Part shown: positions 2,847 to 56,180 of the stretch, in pieces | Position numbering within the stretch: the first letter of the stretch is position 1 | Layout of the letters: each line of letters begins with the position of its first letter | Source: Methanobrevibacter sp. | Lineage (GTDB): Archaea; Methanobacteriota; Methanobacteria; Methanobacteriales; Methanobacteriaceae | Assembly (NCBI GenBank): GCA_017434555.1 | Contig: JAFRFB010000013.1 | Coordinates: 124,001 to 188,000 of the forward strand | DNA: 64,000 nt | Direction of reading: 5' to 3' | The notes under the pieces: model-generated | The model's input: the letters and a program-made list of their open reading frames with translations, nothing else | Told to the model about the DNA's origin: nothing | The model's database searches: none | Translations under genes and position numbers: made by a program

Positions 2847-4023
2847 TGGAAGATACGGTGAATATGGTGGCCAATACATATCAGAAACTCTAATGAACGA
2901 ATTGATTTACTTGGAAGAGCAGTACAATCATTTCATGAACGATCCGGATTTCGTTGATGAATTGAATACATTATTGAAAGAATATGCAGGAAGGCCCTCA
3001 TTATTATATTATGCAAAAAGAATGACTGAAGATTTGGGTGGAGCAAAGATATATTTAAAACGTGAAGATTTAAACCATACCGGTGCACATAAAATCAATA
3101 ATGTTTTAGGTCAGGTTTTGCTTGCTAAAAAAATGGGTAAAAGCAGAGTGATTGCAGAAACTGGTGCAGGACAGCATGGTGTAGCGACTGCAACTGCAGC
3201 AGCTCTTCTGGATATGGAATGTGAAGTCTTCATGGGAGAAGTAGACACAAAAAGACAGGCTTTAAATGTTTATAGGATGGAATTGCTTGGAGCAAAAGTT
3301 CACTCCGTCAAATCCGGAACAAAAACCCTGAAGGATGCAGTTAATGACGCATTCAGGGATTGGATAGCTAATGTTCATACTACAAATTATGTTATAGGTT
3401 CAACAATGGGTCCTCATCCATTCCCACAAATTGTAAGGGATTTTCAATCAGTAATAAGTGCTGAAGCACGCCAGCAAATCCTTGAAAAAGAAGGAAAACT
3501 GCCGACGGCTGTAGTTGCCTGTGTCGGCGGGGGAAGTAATGCGATGGGAGCATTTTTTAACTTTATCGATGATGAAGAAGTTGAATTGATTGGATGTGAA
3601 GCTGGAGGAAAAGGAGTTGATACTCCATATAATGCTGCAGCATTAACCAATGGACAAATTGGAATATTTCATGGTATGAAATCAATATTCAATCAGGGAG
3701 AATATGGCCAGATTGCTCCTGTTTATTCAATATCTGCTGGTCTTGATTATCCTGGCGTTGGACCGGAACATGCATATTTAAGAGATTCCGGCAGAGCCAA
3801 ATATGTTCCAATCAACGATGAGGAAGCAGTGGAAGCATTTGAATACCTCTCAAAAATGGAGGGAATCATTCCGGCTATTGAAAGTGCTCATGCGGTGGCA
3901 CATGCAATGAAAATCGCACCTGAAATGGATAAAAACGATATTATAATTATCTGTTTATCTGGAAGAGGAGATAAAGATGTTAAATCTATAGCTGATTATA
4001 GGGGAGTTGATTTAGGTGAGTAG
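2839..4023 (+). CDS. trpB: Tryptophan synthase beta subunit
   Basis: PLP enzyme joining indole to serine. The 394-aa length is that of the classical TrpB1 form. The PLP Schiff-base Lys is in HTGAHKINN, the substrate carboxylate loop is ETGAGQHG, and the PLP phosphate loop is GGGSNAMG. The C-terminal LSGRGDKD is also typical of TrpB1. It overlaps trpF upstream (8 nt) and trpA downstream (8 nt). TrpB1 next to trpA is expected to act as the alpha2beta2 complex. Confidence 0.98.
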
Positions 4024-6614: not shown

Positions 6615-6701
6615 CTCTTTTTAAAAACTTCTTGATTTTTAAAATTTCGATTTTCATTCTAAATAGAAATTTTTCGATAAAAAAAGTATTAAAATTAGTA
6701 T

Positions 6702-6908
6702 ATGAAAGTTAGGGTTAATTTAATGAATGATAGAAGAACCTATATACCACCTAATTCGCCCCTCGTCGAGACAATGATATATGGGCTGAACTTCAAAAAA
6801 GTTTTTACATCTAAATATTCACCACAATATCAATTCTCCAAATTTGATTGGAGTGTTTTTAATAGAATACTCTTTCCACTTCATAAAAACACCAGCAGAT
6901 ATAAATAA
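6702..6908 (+). CDS. Small hypothetical ORF
   Basis: A 68-aa frame with ATG at 6702 and an internal ATG at 6723 preceded by an AGGGTTA stretch. The predicted peptide (YIPPNSPLVETMIYGLNF is the most distinctive stretch) resembles nothing I recognize. It is hydrophilic, with several aromatic residues and a basic C-terminus, and has no signal peptide or membrane segment. The next 240 bases contain no gene, so it may be a remnant or a real small gene. Confidence 0.3.
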   Translation: MKVRVNLMNDRRTYIPPNSPLVETMIYGLNFKKVFTSKYSPQYQFSKFDWSVFNRILFPLHKNTSRYK

Positions 6909-7147
6909 TTATATTAGTGTTTTAGAATAAGATATTTTCATTCAAAACTATTTATAATTTCGTGTTTTTAAAAATAAATATTGTTTTTAGAATATAAAAT
7001 TGCTTTTAGAATAGAATATTGCTTTAATTTGGTAATAAGTAATGGATGAAACTTTCATATACTTTGATGTTCATAATATCATATAACATCTTAGGATGTT
7101 TGGTGGCAAAATGCTAACCTATAGTTTTTATGTTGAATAGGGATGTG

Positions 7148-7408
7148 TCAAAATTTGTTTAACAAATTTTCCTTATTCAATTTTAAAAAATCTTGTTTTT
7201 TATAGTATTTAATATTTAATAAATCATAATTAGTTAGATTATTTGATTCTTGGTCAAACTTAAAATAATTGGGATAATTCCATCCATTAATATGCAAAAT
7301 ATATGTATCTTCAAATATTAATTCAATATTCCATTTTACATCATCGAAAAAATGTAAACAATGGCAATCAACAGTACTGAATAAAAATTCATGGCAATAC
7401 CATTTATA
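7148..7408 (-). pseudogene. Decayed gene remnant of unknown function
   Basis: The minus strand reads openly for 86 codons from just inside a TGA (7409-7411) to a TGA at 7148-7150, but it has no ATG or GTG near its beginning. The translation has a protein-like composition rich in Trp, Tyr, Asp and Asn (for example DDVKWNIELIFEDTYILHIN and GWNYPNYFKF), unlike a chance frame in such AT-rich DNA. It is therefore probably the C-terminal end of a gene that lost its front. The family is not recognized. Confidence 0.4.
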
Positions 7409-7488
7409 TCAAGTTATTGAAGAATAAACATAATATTAATAATCAATAAGTCAAATAACACAAAAATAATATAGATTTTTTGTTGCCC

Positions 7489-7517
7489 GTATACTATACA
7501 AAATATTTACTACTTTT
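7489..7517 (+). repeat. 29-bp direct repeat, upstream copy
   Basis: It begins with the perfect palindrome GTATA-C-TATAC and continues aaaatatttactactttt. The second copy at 9551-9579 differs at one base. Weaker similarity extends about 45 bp further upstream in both copies. The pair brackets the AAA+ ATPase gene and its 23-bp array. Confidence 0.75.
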
Positions 7518-7748
7518 AACTCTCAAATTATAATATAAAACTAAGAAGCATATATATTTTTATTACTTTTTTTTACACATCATATTCAATTTTATGAATA
7601 TTTATAATAAAATAAATTAAATAATACATTAATTAATATAACATCAACATTATCATATTGAAAACATAACATTGCTCTCTAAACAACTATCCTAAGTGAA
7701 ATTAGAAACCACAAAGTCAATATGATTAAATTTGAAATGACAAAAAAG

Positions 7749-7900
7749 CACAAAAATATAGTGTAGAAAACCACAAAAATATAGTATGAAAAAGCACAAA
7801 AATATAGTGTAGAAAACCACAAAAATATAGTATGAAAAAGCACAAAAATATAGTGTAGAAAACCACAAAAATATAGTATGAAAAAGCACAAAAATATAGT
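7749..7900 (+). repeat. Seven-copy 23-bp tandem array upstream of the ATPase
   Basis: The core CACAAAAATATAGT occurs exactly seven times, starting at 7749, 7772, 7795, 7818, 7841, 7864 and 7887, a constant 23-bp step. The 9-base linkers alternate between gtagaaaac and atgaaaaag types. The array ends 17 bases before the ATPase ATG, leaving room only for a GAGGT ribosome-binding site. Each core contains an AT-rich TATA-like string. The period is slightly over two helical turns, so bound proteins would be placed on a slowly rotating face. The geometry was read directly; a regulatory or iteron-like role is inferred. Confidence 0.85.
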
Positions 7901-7917
7901 TTAATGAGGTTGACAAC

Positions 7918-9207
7918 ATGTCAGAATTATATTATAAAAGAATACTGGATGAAATAATTGAAAAAAGGCTTAAAATGGTTGGCGCAGTTGTTATTGAAGG
8001 TCCAAAATGGTGCGGAAAAACAACAACAGCAAAACAACATGCAAAAAGCATTTTACAACTGCAGAATCCTGATAATAGGCAAAATTATTTAGAATTGGCT
8101 GAAATAATGCCTTCAAAATTATTAGAAGGTGAAAAACCTAGATTAATTGACGAATGGCAGGTTGCACCCGTATTATGGGATGCCGTAAGAACAAAAATAG
8201 ACAATACTCCAGGATACGGACAATTTATCCTAACAGGCTCAACAAGCGTTAACAATGATGAAATTATGCACACAGGAACCGGACGAGTAAACAGAATGAC
8301 AATGCTACCTATGAGTTTATATGAAAGCAAAGAGTCTAACGGCAGAATATCAATTTTGGAATTATTCAAGAATCCTGACATGAATATTGATGGAATTGAA
8401 TCAAATTTAACAATTGAAGATTTAGCATTTGCAACATGCCGAGGAGGATGGCCAGAAAGCATCATACAAACGGATAGAGAAGCACAGTTATTTGTTGCCG
8501 AAAATTATGTTGACAACATTTGCAAATCAGACATATCTACAGTTGATAGAGTTAAAAGAGACCCAAACCGAGCAAAAAAAATATTAAGATCATATGCAAG
8601 AAACAATTCCACAGAAGCAACAAAACAAACAATCCTAAAAGACGTTAAGGGAAATTATCCAGACATGGCTTATTCCACATTGGACGATTATCTAAAAGCA
8701 CTATCCAAATTATTTGTCACAGTTGACATTCCAGCCTGGAATCCAAATATACGATCAAAATCAGCAATGAAATCATCAGATAAACGAGAATTTATCGACC
8801 CTTCAATAGCAGCAGTTCTTTTAAATTTAGACCCTGATGGATTACTGTTCGACTTGGATACCTTCGGACATATATTTGAAAACTTATGCATGAGAGATTT
8901 ATCAGCATACACTTCTTCTATGGGAGGACAAGTATTTTACTATAGAGACCGTTACGGCTTGGAATGTAATTGTGTATTAACTTTAAAAAATGAAGATTAT
9001 GCATTAATAGAATTTAAATTGGGAAGTACAAAAATCGAAAAAGGAGCAAAAAACTTATTAAAACTGGACAGCCTCATTAAAAAGACAATTTCAGAAACTG
9101 ACTTATATATCAAAGAGCCGAAATTTTTAGCAGTAATAACCGGAGGAAAATTTGCCAAAACAAGAAAAGATGGTGTAAAAGTCATTCCAATAGGATGTTT
9201 AAGATAA
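7918..9207 (+). CDS. AAA+ ATPase with DUF4143 domain
   Basis: A 429-aa ATPase of the archaeal/bacterial AAA_14 plus DUF4143 type, whose cellular role is not established. The Walker A motif GPKWCGKTT is at residues 28-36, Walker B is RLIDEW near 77-82, and a sensor-like FILTGST follows near residue 100. The C-terminal half contains the DUF4143-like region (residues about 200-390), ending in a nuclease-fold-like stretch with YYRDRYGLECNCVL and ALIEFKLG. The ATG at 7918 follows GAGGT. The gene stands alone between long AT-rich flanks and is bracketed by 29-bp repeats, which suggests an accessory cassette. Such genes are often multicopy and patchily distributed. Confidence 0.88.
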   Translation: MSELYYKRILDEIIEKRLKMVGAVVIEGPKWCGKTTTAKQHAKSILQLQNPDNRQNYLELAEIMPSKLLEGEKPRLIDEWQVAPVLWDAVRTKIDNTPGYGQFILTGSTSVNNDEIMHTGTGRVNRMTMLPMSLYESKESNGRISILELFKNPDMNIDGIESNLTIEDLAFATCRGGWPESIIQTDREAQLFVAENYVDNICKSDISTVDRVKRDPNRAKKILRSYARNNSTEATKQTILKDVKGNYPDMAYSTLDDYLKALSKLFVTVDIPAWNPNIRSKSAMKSSDKREFIDPSIAAVLLNLDPDGLLFDLDTFGHIFENLCMRDLSAYTSSMGGQVFYYRDRYGLECNCVLTLKNEDYALIEFKLGSTKIEKGAKNLLKLDSLIKKTISETDLYIKEPKFLAVITGGKFAKTRKDGVKVIPIGCLR

Positions 9208-9885
9208 CATCCTATTAAAAAACATTTTTGAAAATTCAAAAAGTAAATCATAATCCAAAAGCAATTGGAAACATAGAATATGAAAAATTTAATGAATGAT
9301 TTCCCAATAATTTTTCAAAGAATTTACACCAAATATAGAGTCAATATGGTGAAAAAACTATACAAAATATAAACACCTGCTAAAAAAATCCAAATCAATT
9401 CCTTAAAATAATACTTCTTTTTTAGAAATATCACTATAATACATTTAATAAAATAATAAAATAAGTCATATTAAGTTAATTAAGAAAAAAATTAATATTA
9501 ATTATCCATAAGTTAAATTACGCTCAAATTATACATAATGGATTTTGCCAGTATACTATACAAAATATTTAGTACTTTTCGCTTCAGCATAAAATTTAAT
9601 ATCAGTTCATATTAATATTTGTGGAGTCAAAATTTGCATAACTTTAAATACTCTTAATAATATAACTATATCCCATATCTATTTGTAATATTAAAAAATT
9701 ATTTATTATAATTTGGATTTTTGCTGTTTGTAGACATAAACGGTTACTATGCAGTTTTTATCTCTAACGTCTTTTGATAATAATCGAGCTTAGATAAATT
9801 TGCAATTAGATTTATAATGACTATTTAATTAAGCACTTTTCAGTGCGTATTAAAATAAAAAAATAAAGGAAATAATGGTGGAAAA
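9208..9885. other. Intergenic region after the ATPase
   Basis: About 680 bases without a credible gene. It contains an imperfect inverted repeat (caccaaatat at 9328-9337 against atatggtg at 9345-9352) and the second 29-bp repeat at 9551-9579. The promoter region of the L44e operon follows, with a TATA-like tttataatg near 9811 and a small hairpin gcact-tttc-agtgc at 9833-9846. I see no further coding signal. Confidence 0.5.
9551..9579 (+). repeat. 29-bp direct repeat, downstream copy
   Basis: Near-perfect copy of 7489-7517 (28 of 29 bases), again starting with the palindrome GTATACTATAC. It lies about 340 bases after the ATPase stop codon. Same orientation as the first copy, so the pair forms direct repeats around a roughly 2-kb segment. 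Confidence 0.75.
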
Positions 9886-45660: not shown

Positions 45661-46056
45661 CTATAATTTTGTTTTTATAGCTTTTATTTGTTTAATGTCA
45701 ATTTCTGTCATTTTTGATACTTCTTCAACATTGTATTTTTTTAGCATCCTTTTAATAATATTTTCCTCACCTTTTTCTATTCCTATTTTTAGCCCTATTT
45801 TTAGTCCTTTTTCTATGCCTATTTCTTTTCCTTCCATTATTCCTATTTCTTTTCCTTTTTCTATTCCTTCTTCTATTCCTATTTCTTTTCCTTTTTCTAT
45901 TCCTTCTTCTATTCCTATTTCTTTTCCACGTTCTTCTGCTCTTGTTAGTTCGCCATCGATTATTGCATCTCTTAGTTGTTCTTCAAAAGGTTTTAAATGT
46001 ATTTCTGACATTTTTAATTTCTCCATTACTATTTTGATTTTTTTAGGATTTTTCAT
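45661..46056 (-). pseudogene. C-terminal fragment of an Rpn/PD-(D/E)XK-type protein
   Basis: A 131-codon frame starting at ATG 46056. It contains a helical linker with repeated GIEEGIEKGKEI units (residues about 44-90) and a C-terminal helix-turn (RMLKKYNVEEVSKMTEIDIK), the usual tail of Rpn-like transposase/nuclease proteins. The nuclease part is missing; just upstream is an in-frame TAA, and beyond it a short coding-like stretch in another frame (LIIELSLITNFLLIIPPEDV). It is a decayed or truncated gene. Confidence 0.65.
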
Positions 46057-55997: not shown

Positions 55998-56030
55998 GGT
56001 TAAACTTTTTTAACCTCTCTTTTTTTTATT
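55996..56030 (+). terminator. Terminator hairpin overlapping the adhesin stop codon
   Basis: GAGGTTAA (55996-56003) pairs with TTAACCTC (56010-56017) across a 6-nt loop, followed by a long T-run. The last two bases of the stop codon TGA (55995-55997) lie in the left arm. The shape is that of an intrinsic terminator. Confidence 0.65.
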
Positions 56031-56180
56031 TTTTGATGATTTTTTGGTGAAAAAAATAGTTTTACTTTTTTAACCTCTTTTTTTATTTTTTGATGATTTT
56101 TTGGTGAAAAAAATAGTTTTACTTTTTTAACCTCTTTTTTTATTTTTTGATGATTTTTTGGTGTAAAAAATAGTTTTTAA
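56004..56180 (+). repeat. Tandem 57-60 bp repeats carrying terminator-like hairpins
   Basis: Nearly three copies of a unit built of taacctc, a T-run, ttttttgatgattttttgg, tgaaaaaaatagttt and acttttt. The taacctc anchors begin at 56011, 56071 and 56128, giving steps of 60 and 57 bp. Across each junction GGTgAAAAAA can pair with TTTTTTaACC, giving another hairpin followed by T's. The terminator thus appears to have been amplified in tandem. Confidence 0.75.

Follow-up and report, generated by a model that had tools for sequence, protein, structure and literature searches.

The window analysed here is a stretch of 64,000 nucleotides from Methanobrevibacter sp. that carries a short tandem array directly in front of a gene for an AAA+ ATPase. 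Seven exact copies of the 14-bp core CACAAAAATATAGT start at positions 7749, 7772, 7795, 7818, 7841, 7864 and 7887, a start-to-start step of 23 bp throughout the array (7749-7900), and 17 bases separate the end of the last core at 7900 from the ATG of the gene at 7918 (start codons in this analysis are predicted). TRF describes the array both as period 23 with 7.1 copies and as period 46 with 3.4 copies, each at 100% match. Exact matching and TRF thus reproduce the geometry given in an earlier note on this DNA, namely seven cores at 23-bp steps with alternating linkers and a 17-base gap to the ATG. Although the linkers do alternate at this locus with a 46-bp period, this is incidental to the family, in which the conserved period is 23 bp. 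In the register shared by the family, seven 23-bp units occupy 7746-7906 of the forward strand, all seven with the word ATATAG at the variable positions 11-16, and the tail of the last unit extends toward a GAGGT (7906-7910, forward strand) whose sequence marks it as the likely ribosome-binding site of the ATPase gene.

The unit is private to this array. A search of the 3.15-Mb genome returned seven exact matches to CACAAAAATATAGT, all on the forward strand and all within the array, and none to the reversed-pattern control. When a 22-base version of the core was sought with up to three mismatches, six of the seven array units matched at 0-1 mismatch, and the rest of the genome gave only 3-mismatch matches, near the control level. 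The linkers are copies of one another rather than unique spacers, bearing out the earlier note's statement that this is not a CRISPR, an Rfam search found nothing at the array, and a sigma-70 scan was uninformative at this locus. Elsewhere in the window there are two unrelated sets of tandem repeats, one of 57 bp x 3.0 (56004-56177) and one of 36 bp x 2.5 or 12 bp x 13 (45770-45927).

The gene itself (7918-9207, forward strand) encodes a protein of 429 amino acids (P0001) with Pfam matches to AAA_14 (57.6 bits) and DUF4143 (93 bits), both above the gathering score, and it matches the PADLOC model PDLC04790 of the candidate defence family PDC-S01 (E 7.4e-60), as do the bacterial members of the family. 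The Walker A and B motifs are intact, with K34, D78 and E79 present in 218 of 218 family members. An AlphaFold2 model built on 29 family sequences (mean pLDDT 91) has helices at 216-228, 236-244 and 252-264 and strands at 268-271 and 289-292, which I read as a winged helix-turn-helix (wHTH), with a PD-(D/E)XK-like domain C-terminal to it. The recognition helix of the predicted wHTH corresponds to codons 252-264 (8671-8709, forward strand), the first two of which, Tyr-Ser at codons 252-253 (8671-8676, forward strand), covary throughout the family with positions 13 and 15/16 of the unit. Family comparison places the PD-(D/E)XK-like motif at codons 349-367 (E349, 351, E365 and K367; 8962-9018, forward strand), and its residues are nearly invariant among relatives (D351 in 215/218, E365 and K367 each in 217/218). 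The window ATPase has Asn at 351 (codon 8968-8970) instead of the Asp of its close orthologues L010, L011 and L013, and the nuclease activity of this copy, if any, is therefore doubtful, though its array is intact. Among PDB structures the closest fold is that of an archaeal Orc1/Cdc6-DNA complex (2qby_A), at a low TM-score. The likeness to Orc1/Cdc6 consists in an AAA+ module plus a winged helix, whereas the C-terminal PD-(D/E)XK-like domain, the AAA_14 family membership, the single-gene cassettes and the fixed-pitch tandem array set the present protein apart.

A conserved 23-bp pitch in archaea and bacteria

Homologues of the ATPase occur in 42 of the 67 genomes of the genus, and the 500 bp upstream of them hold period-23 arrays of many different sequences. 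Arrays of the same period are found in other genera of the family Methanobacteriaceae and, by way of a profile scan, in bacteria including Bacteroidales, Lachnospiraceae and other Clostridia, Treponema and Verrucomicrobia, with more distant plasmid-borne carriers in Collinsella and Prosthecochloris. Among distinct upstream regions of the family, drawn from archaea and several bacterial phyla, 200/224 passed the period-23 score, compared with 2/424 controls (Fisher p about 7e-137, a value that ignores kinship within the family). The controls were real upstream regions cleaned of divergent neighbours that share the same array. In TRF output, the 67 kb upstream of family genes account for 149 rows of period 23, whereas about 858 kb of other DNA yields 10, several of which prove to be second, truncated or orphan arrays of the present type. 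Period-23 arrays are not a background feature. The earlier note had proposed looking for equal-period arrays of different sequence in front of homologous genes, and these occur far beyond Methanobrevibacter; homologous loci that lack an array, which it held would speak against its reading, are not the rule. Several members that fall short of the score retain two to five degenerate units in register; in a few full-length members, such as L041/L117, L189 and L316, no array is clearly recognisable. At L041/L117 there are only two similar units upstream, apparently 24 bp apart, a possible exception to the pitch.

A phase alignment of 138 arrays gives a common unit of roughly TACCnCAAAA-nnnnn-AA(A/G)T(A/G)AAA, in which a hypervariable word (11-15) is set between A-rich blocks at positions 7-10 and 16-23. 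Array size has a median of about 4 units and ranges from about 2 to 15. The 23-bp array is confined to the branch that matches PDLC04790. Other DUF4143 branches in the same archaea have one in 1 of 22 cases, and that one is an orphan adjoining a gene for a protein of about 483 amino acids.

Several genes of this sister subfamily of about 483 amino acids carry arrays of their own, with a pitch of 33-34 bp and different sequences, in clades that are 45-55% identical to each other. Such arrays lie at L094, L095, L096, L097, L098, L099, L104, L106 and L107, often around TTCAAATATTTGAA; another clade of the subfamily (L095_1, L101, L103 and L105) has no array. The longer pitch exceeds 23 bp by about one helical turn, and, with 10.5 bp to the turn, both 23 and 33.5 bp overshoot whole turns by about 0.19 of a turn. 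Neighbouring protomers would then be set about 70 degrees apart at both pitches, as judged from few clades.

Covariation of the variable word with the recognition helix

Average-corrected mutual information was calculated between protein columns and the 23 unit positions over 137 protein/unit pairs (effective number 66), and the highest-scoring pairs of all were residue 252 with position 13 (z 11.1), residue 253 with position 15 (9.4) and residue 253 with position 16 (8.5). Both residues stand at the start of the predicted recognition helix. The pairs 252-13 and 253-16 recur when archaea and bacteria are analysed separately, and 253-15 recurs strongly in bacteria. After thinning to 75% identity, Glu252 goes with C at position 13 in 12/14 sequences, Lys252 with G in 5/5 and Arg252 with G in 5/9; Pro253 goes with A15 in 19/22 and A16 in 22/22, Asp253 with C15 in 6/7 and G16 in 6/7, and Arg or Lys at 253 with G15 in 4/4. 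This residue-to-base code is chemically sensible, in that Lys, and mostly also Arg, at 252 pairs with G and Glu with C at position 13, and Asp253 pairs with C and Arg/Lys253 with G at position 15.

The same two columns stand out when each archaeal sequence is paired with each bacterial one. Where both partners have the same residue 252, agreement at position 13 climbs from 0.21 to 0.56, a gain of 0.35 that ranks first of 248 columns (the next best gains 0.13). Sharing residue 253 raises agreement from 0.26 to 0.71 at position 15 and from 0.36 to 0.86 at position 16, again ranking first for both positions. Rules fixed beforehand were then applied to 46 new loci less than 75% identical to the training set, and were right in 17/33 cases for 253 and position 15 (8.6 expected, p 0.0006), 21/33 for 253 and position 16 (10.2 expected, p<0.001) and 13/31 for 252 and position 13 (8.1 expected, p 0.024), nominal p-values that overstate independence because the sequences are related. 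The held-out signal is weaker than in training: residue 253 generalises well and residue 252 partly. The rule that Glu252 calls for C held in 6/17 and fails in a distant bacterial branch, perhaps owing to changed docking or to a one-base shift in register.

Three further signals were considered. Covariation of residue 345 with position 6 was strong in training, but the rule fixed for it was uninformative in the held-out loci (20 right, 20 expected), and the many columns that covary with unit position 7 are read as clade signal rather than as contacts. Residue 283 and position 5 also covary strongly in the training set.

These results bear on whether the array needs a dedicated protein at all. 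Its units are A+T-rich, copies within an array are often identical, and replication slippage makes tandem repeats, as would be expected of a neutral expansion or of a row of TATA-like boxes. Such an origin would leave unexplained why the 23-bp pitch stays constant across several phyla in which the sequence changes, why the units share a backbone and why they covary with recognition-helix residues, and I give it practically no credence. Recognition of its own array by the ATPase is, by contrast, strongly supported by the covariation. One protomer may occupy each 23-bp unit, reading it through the DUF4143 winged helix, with residues 252 and 253 contacting positions 13 and 15/16 of the variable word and other contacts holding the A-rich backbone. 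The constant pitch would load an ordered AAA+ multimer cooperatively along the DNA.

Promoter register

In Bacteroidota and some Firmicutes the arrays keep a fixed relation to the promoter. In Bacteroidota the -7 element TAnnTTTG lies between array and ATG in 32/34 loci, against 1.6 expected, and usually starts 22-23 bp after the boundary that closes the final unit, which places the end of that unit at the -33 box (nominal p for this register about 2e-6). Eight clostridial (Firmicutes) loci have a recognisable TTGAC, as in a canonical -35 box, and in five of them it lies exactly at what would be the first base of the next unit. Archaeal arrays typically end about 12 bp before the ATG. There the array presumably lies at or over the core promoter, for which no room would be left outside it unless the array itself is transcribed. 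A TTTATAT or TATA-like box occurs inside the archaeal arrays of some clades only. Thus the suggestion in the earlier note that the cores are TATA-like sites holds as regards their position at or over the core promoter but not as regards what is conserved, which is the pitch and the protein-matched word rather than a TATA box.

At this point, the interpretation that I regard as likely is that the array comprises the cognate binding sites of the adjoining ATPase and forms a promoter-proximal autoregulatory element of its gene. Autoregulation through binding sites for the ATPase was among the options of the earlier note, and the covariation, the homologous arrays and the promoter register all favour it. 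It would be the simplest function because the promoter register is accompanied by an absence of other sites in the genome, and autoregulation is suggested rather than a regulon because the unit is confined to this one array. In Bacteroidota and some Firmicutes the last unit abuts the -33/-35 element, and in archaea the array presumably lies over the core promoter, so occupancy of the array would set transcription of the ATPase, in the simplest case by repression when the protein is in excess. Repression appears the better guess in archaea, where the sites lie over the presumed promoter; in bacteria activation may also occur, since sites ending at -35 would fit an activator too. Each gene having its own word, paralogues within one genome would share no sites.

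The array may instead, or in addition, be a docking, holding or self-address site, on which an ATPase-nuclease rests inactive or poised and from which it is released onto foreign DNA, or whose loss frees a toxic nuclease in the manner of an addiction system. A defence role of this kind would suit a candidate defence family in which the ATPase is fused to a PD-(D/E)XK-type domain with nearly invariant nuclease-type residues, and it would suit the joint travel of array and gene and the existence of an orphan array at a locus without the gene (L102). The fixed register between array and promoter, however, is what an operator needs and not what a mere docking site needs, the antiviral activity of PDC-S01 is unproven (PMC12988326), and the window gene has a perfect array yet carries Asn351. 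I consider this reading rather unlikely.

Co-mobility of array and gene, and relation to known systems

Compared with close orthologues at other genomic places, similarity extends over the array, the gene and short flanks (approximately 7656-9247, forward strand). Against orthologues 94-97% identical in protein it is limited to about 7650 to 9207-9275, and many other pairs that are 85-96% identical in protein have no common flank on either side; relatives at 93-95% protein identity can likewise lack any common flank. The cassette sits in DNA (6623-9626, forward strand) that is extra relative to 13 relatives, because gins51 and rpl44e are together or nearly so in all of these. As judged from such comparisons, the array is inherited and transferred together with its gene, because similarity stops at short flanks and the orthologues sit at unrelated places.

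Two further explanations were weighed. The array could be a transposon or homing end, a recombination site that mobilises the cassette, in keeping with the unrelated positions of orthologues up to 97% identical and with the extra DNA at 6623-9626. Against this, copies of the array unit downstream of the gene are near the shuffled level at family loci except L181, and neither a recombinase nor terminal inverted repeats were identified for the cassette. The 112-bp direct repeats that flank it (7406-7517 and 9468-9579), which I considered as borders, proved to belong to a dispersed repeat of a separate kind, matched 11 times in the genome. Secondly, an Orc1/Cdc6-like AAA+ wHTH initiator might bind the units as iterons beside its own gene and start replication of an element. 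Plasmid Rep proteins are iteron-binding initiators whose direct repeats lie beside their own gene. The SCCmec protein Cch2 (PMC7581432) offers a known parallel, an oligomeric DNA-binding protein that reads direct repeats next to its own gene, and the fold match to 2qby_A points the same way. Unlike iteron initiators, the present ATPase stands alone in a chromosomal single-gene insert, with neither further replication genes nor any replicon context; family copies on plasmids are single genes of larger plasmids, and the array is set against a promoter, a register that an origin would not explain. I hold the iteron-type origin to be very improbable and the transposon or homing end marginally more so. 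Of the earlier note's proposal of an iteron-like array in a mobile cassette, what stands is that array and gene move as a compact unit; the downstream copies in L181 alone, and a cassette in which neither terminal repeats nor a recombinase were identified, tell against the rest.

Side observations concern both of these repeats. In the bacterial locus L181 an array of the upstream unit recurs downstream of the gene (3705-3850). The two copies of the 112-bp repeat are 79% identical, and in another genome the ATPase of L054 is preceded by a sequence resembling them.

For autoregulation by the ATPase, a close parallel is RptR (PMC12255303), a regulator in a defence locus whose own promoter likewise contains several direct repeats that it binds. 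This small dimeric repressor recognises a 6-bp palindrome in 9-bp repeats of conserved sequence, whereas here an effector-like ATPase would regulate itself through non-palindromic sites at a 23-bp pitch with a diversifying word. Promoter repeats bound by their own regulator are therefore known in kind (RptR, PMC12255303; iteron initiators, PMC7581432). What I did not find in the open-licence literature is an array of constant pitch whose word diversifies in co-evolution with an AAA+-PD-(D/E)XK protein in both archaea and bacteria, and searches for DUF4143, COG1373, PDC-S01 and a 23-bp repeat in the open-licence PMC literature gave no published description of the array. The window gene matches the COG1373-type AAA_14-DUF4143 ATPases of PDC-S01, and its ATPase plus PD-(D/E)XK-type domain agrees with PMC12988326, the consulted part of which mentions no cis array, whereas here the PDLC04790 branch has one. 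That paper places PDC-S01 fourth among the most common defence entries in prokaryotes, with experimental validation pending, and describes antiviral activity as unvalidated for most PDCs (PMC12988326). The array and its partly readable residue-to-base code offer a direct and cheap handle on PDC-S01, with the ligand DNA and predicted contacts given in advance for hundreds of natural variants, and they supply matched protein-DNA pairs from nature in which to follow the evolution of a winged-helix code.

A broader generalization is conceivable, though I would put it forward only tentatively, as more doubtful than probable. The family and its sisters of about 483 amino acids may form a widespread, cross-domain class of self-addressed ATPase-nuclease modules, each with a private array and a wHTH reader that co-diversify and move together, and each leaving an equal remainder of about 0.2 turn per site. 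If so, an AAA+ spiral of fixed twist would be as if wound along the DNA at about 70 degrees per site, and the array, more than just an operator for repression, would serve an abundant candidate defence system as a switch or holding site.

Finally, some arrays lie apart from a complete gene. At L102 (2599-2797) an orphan 23-bp array of about 8.7 near-perfect units has no matching ATPase beside it, and the genome concerned (G004) has no more of such a gene than a 3' fragment at another place. Draft contigs often end in or beside arrays, as at L047 (1-152; G000:C135), L009, L013, L033, L048, L066 and L091, and the second ATPase paralogue of the window genome is among these contig ends; arrays probably interrupt assembly in this way and conceal further copies.
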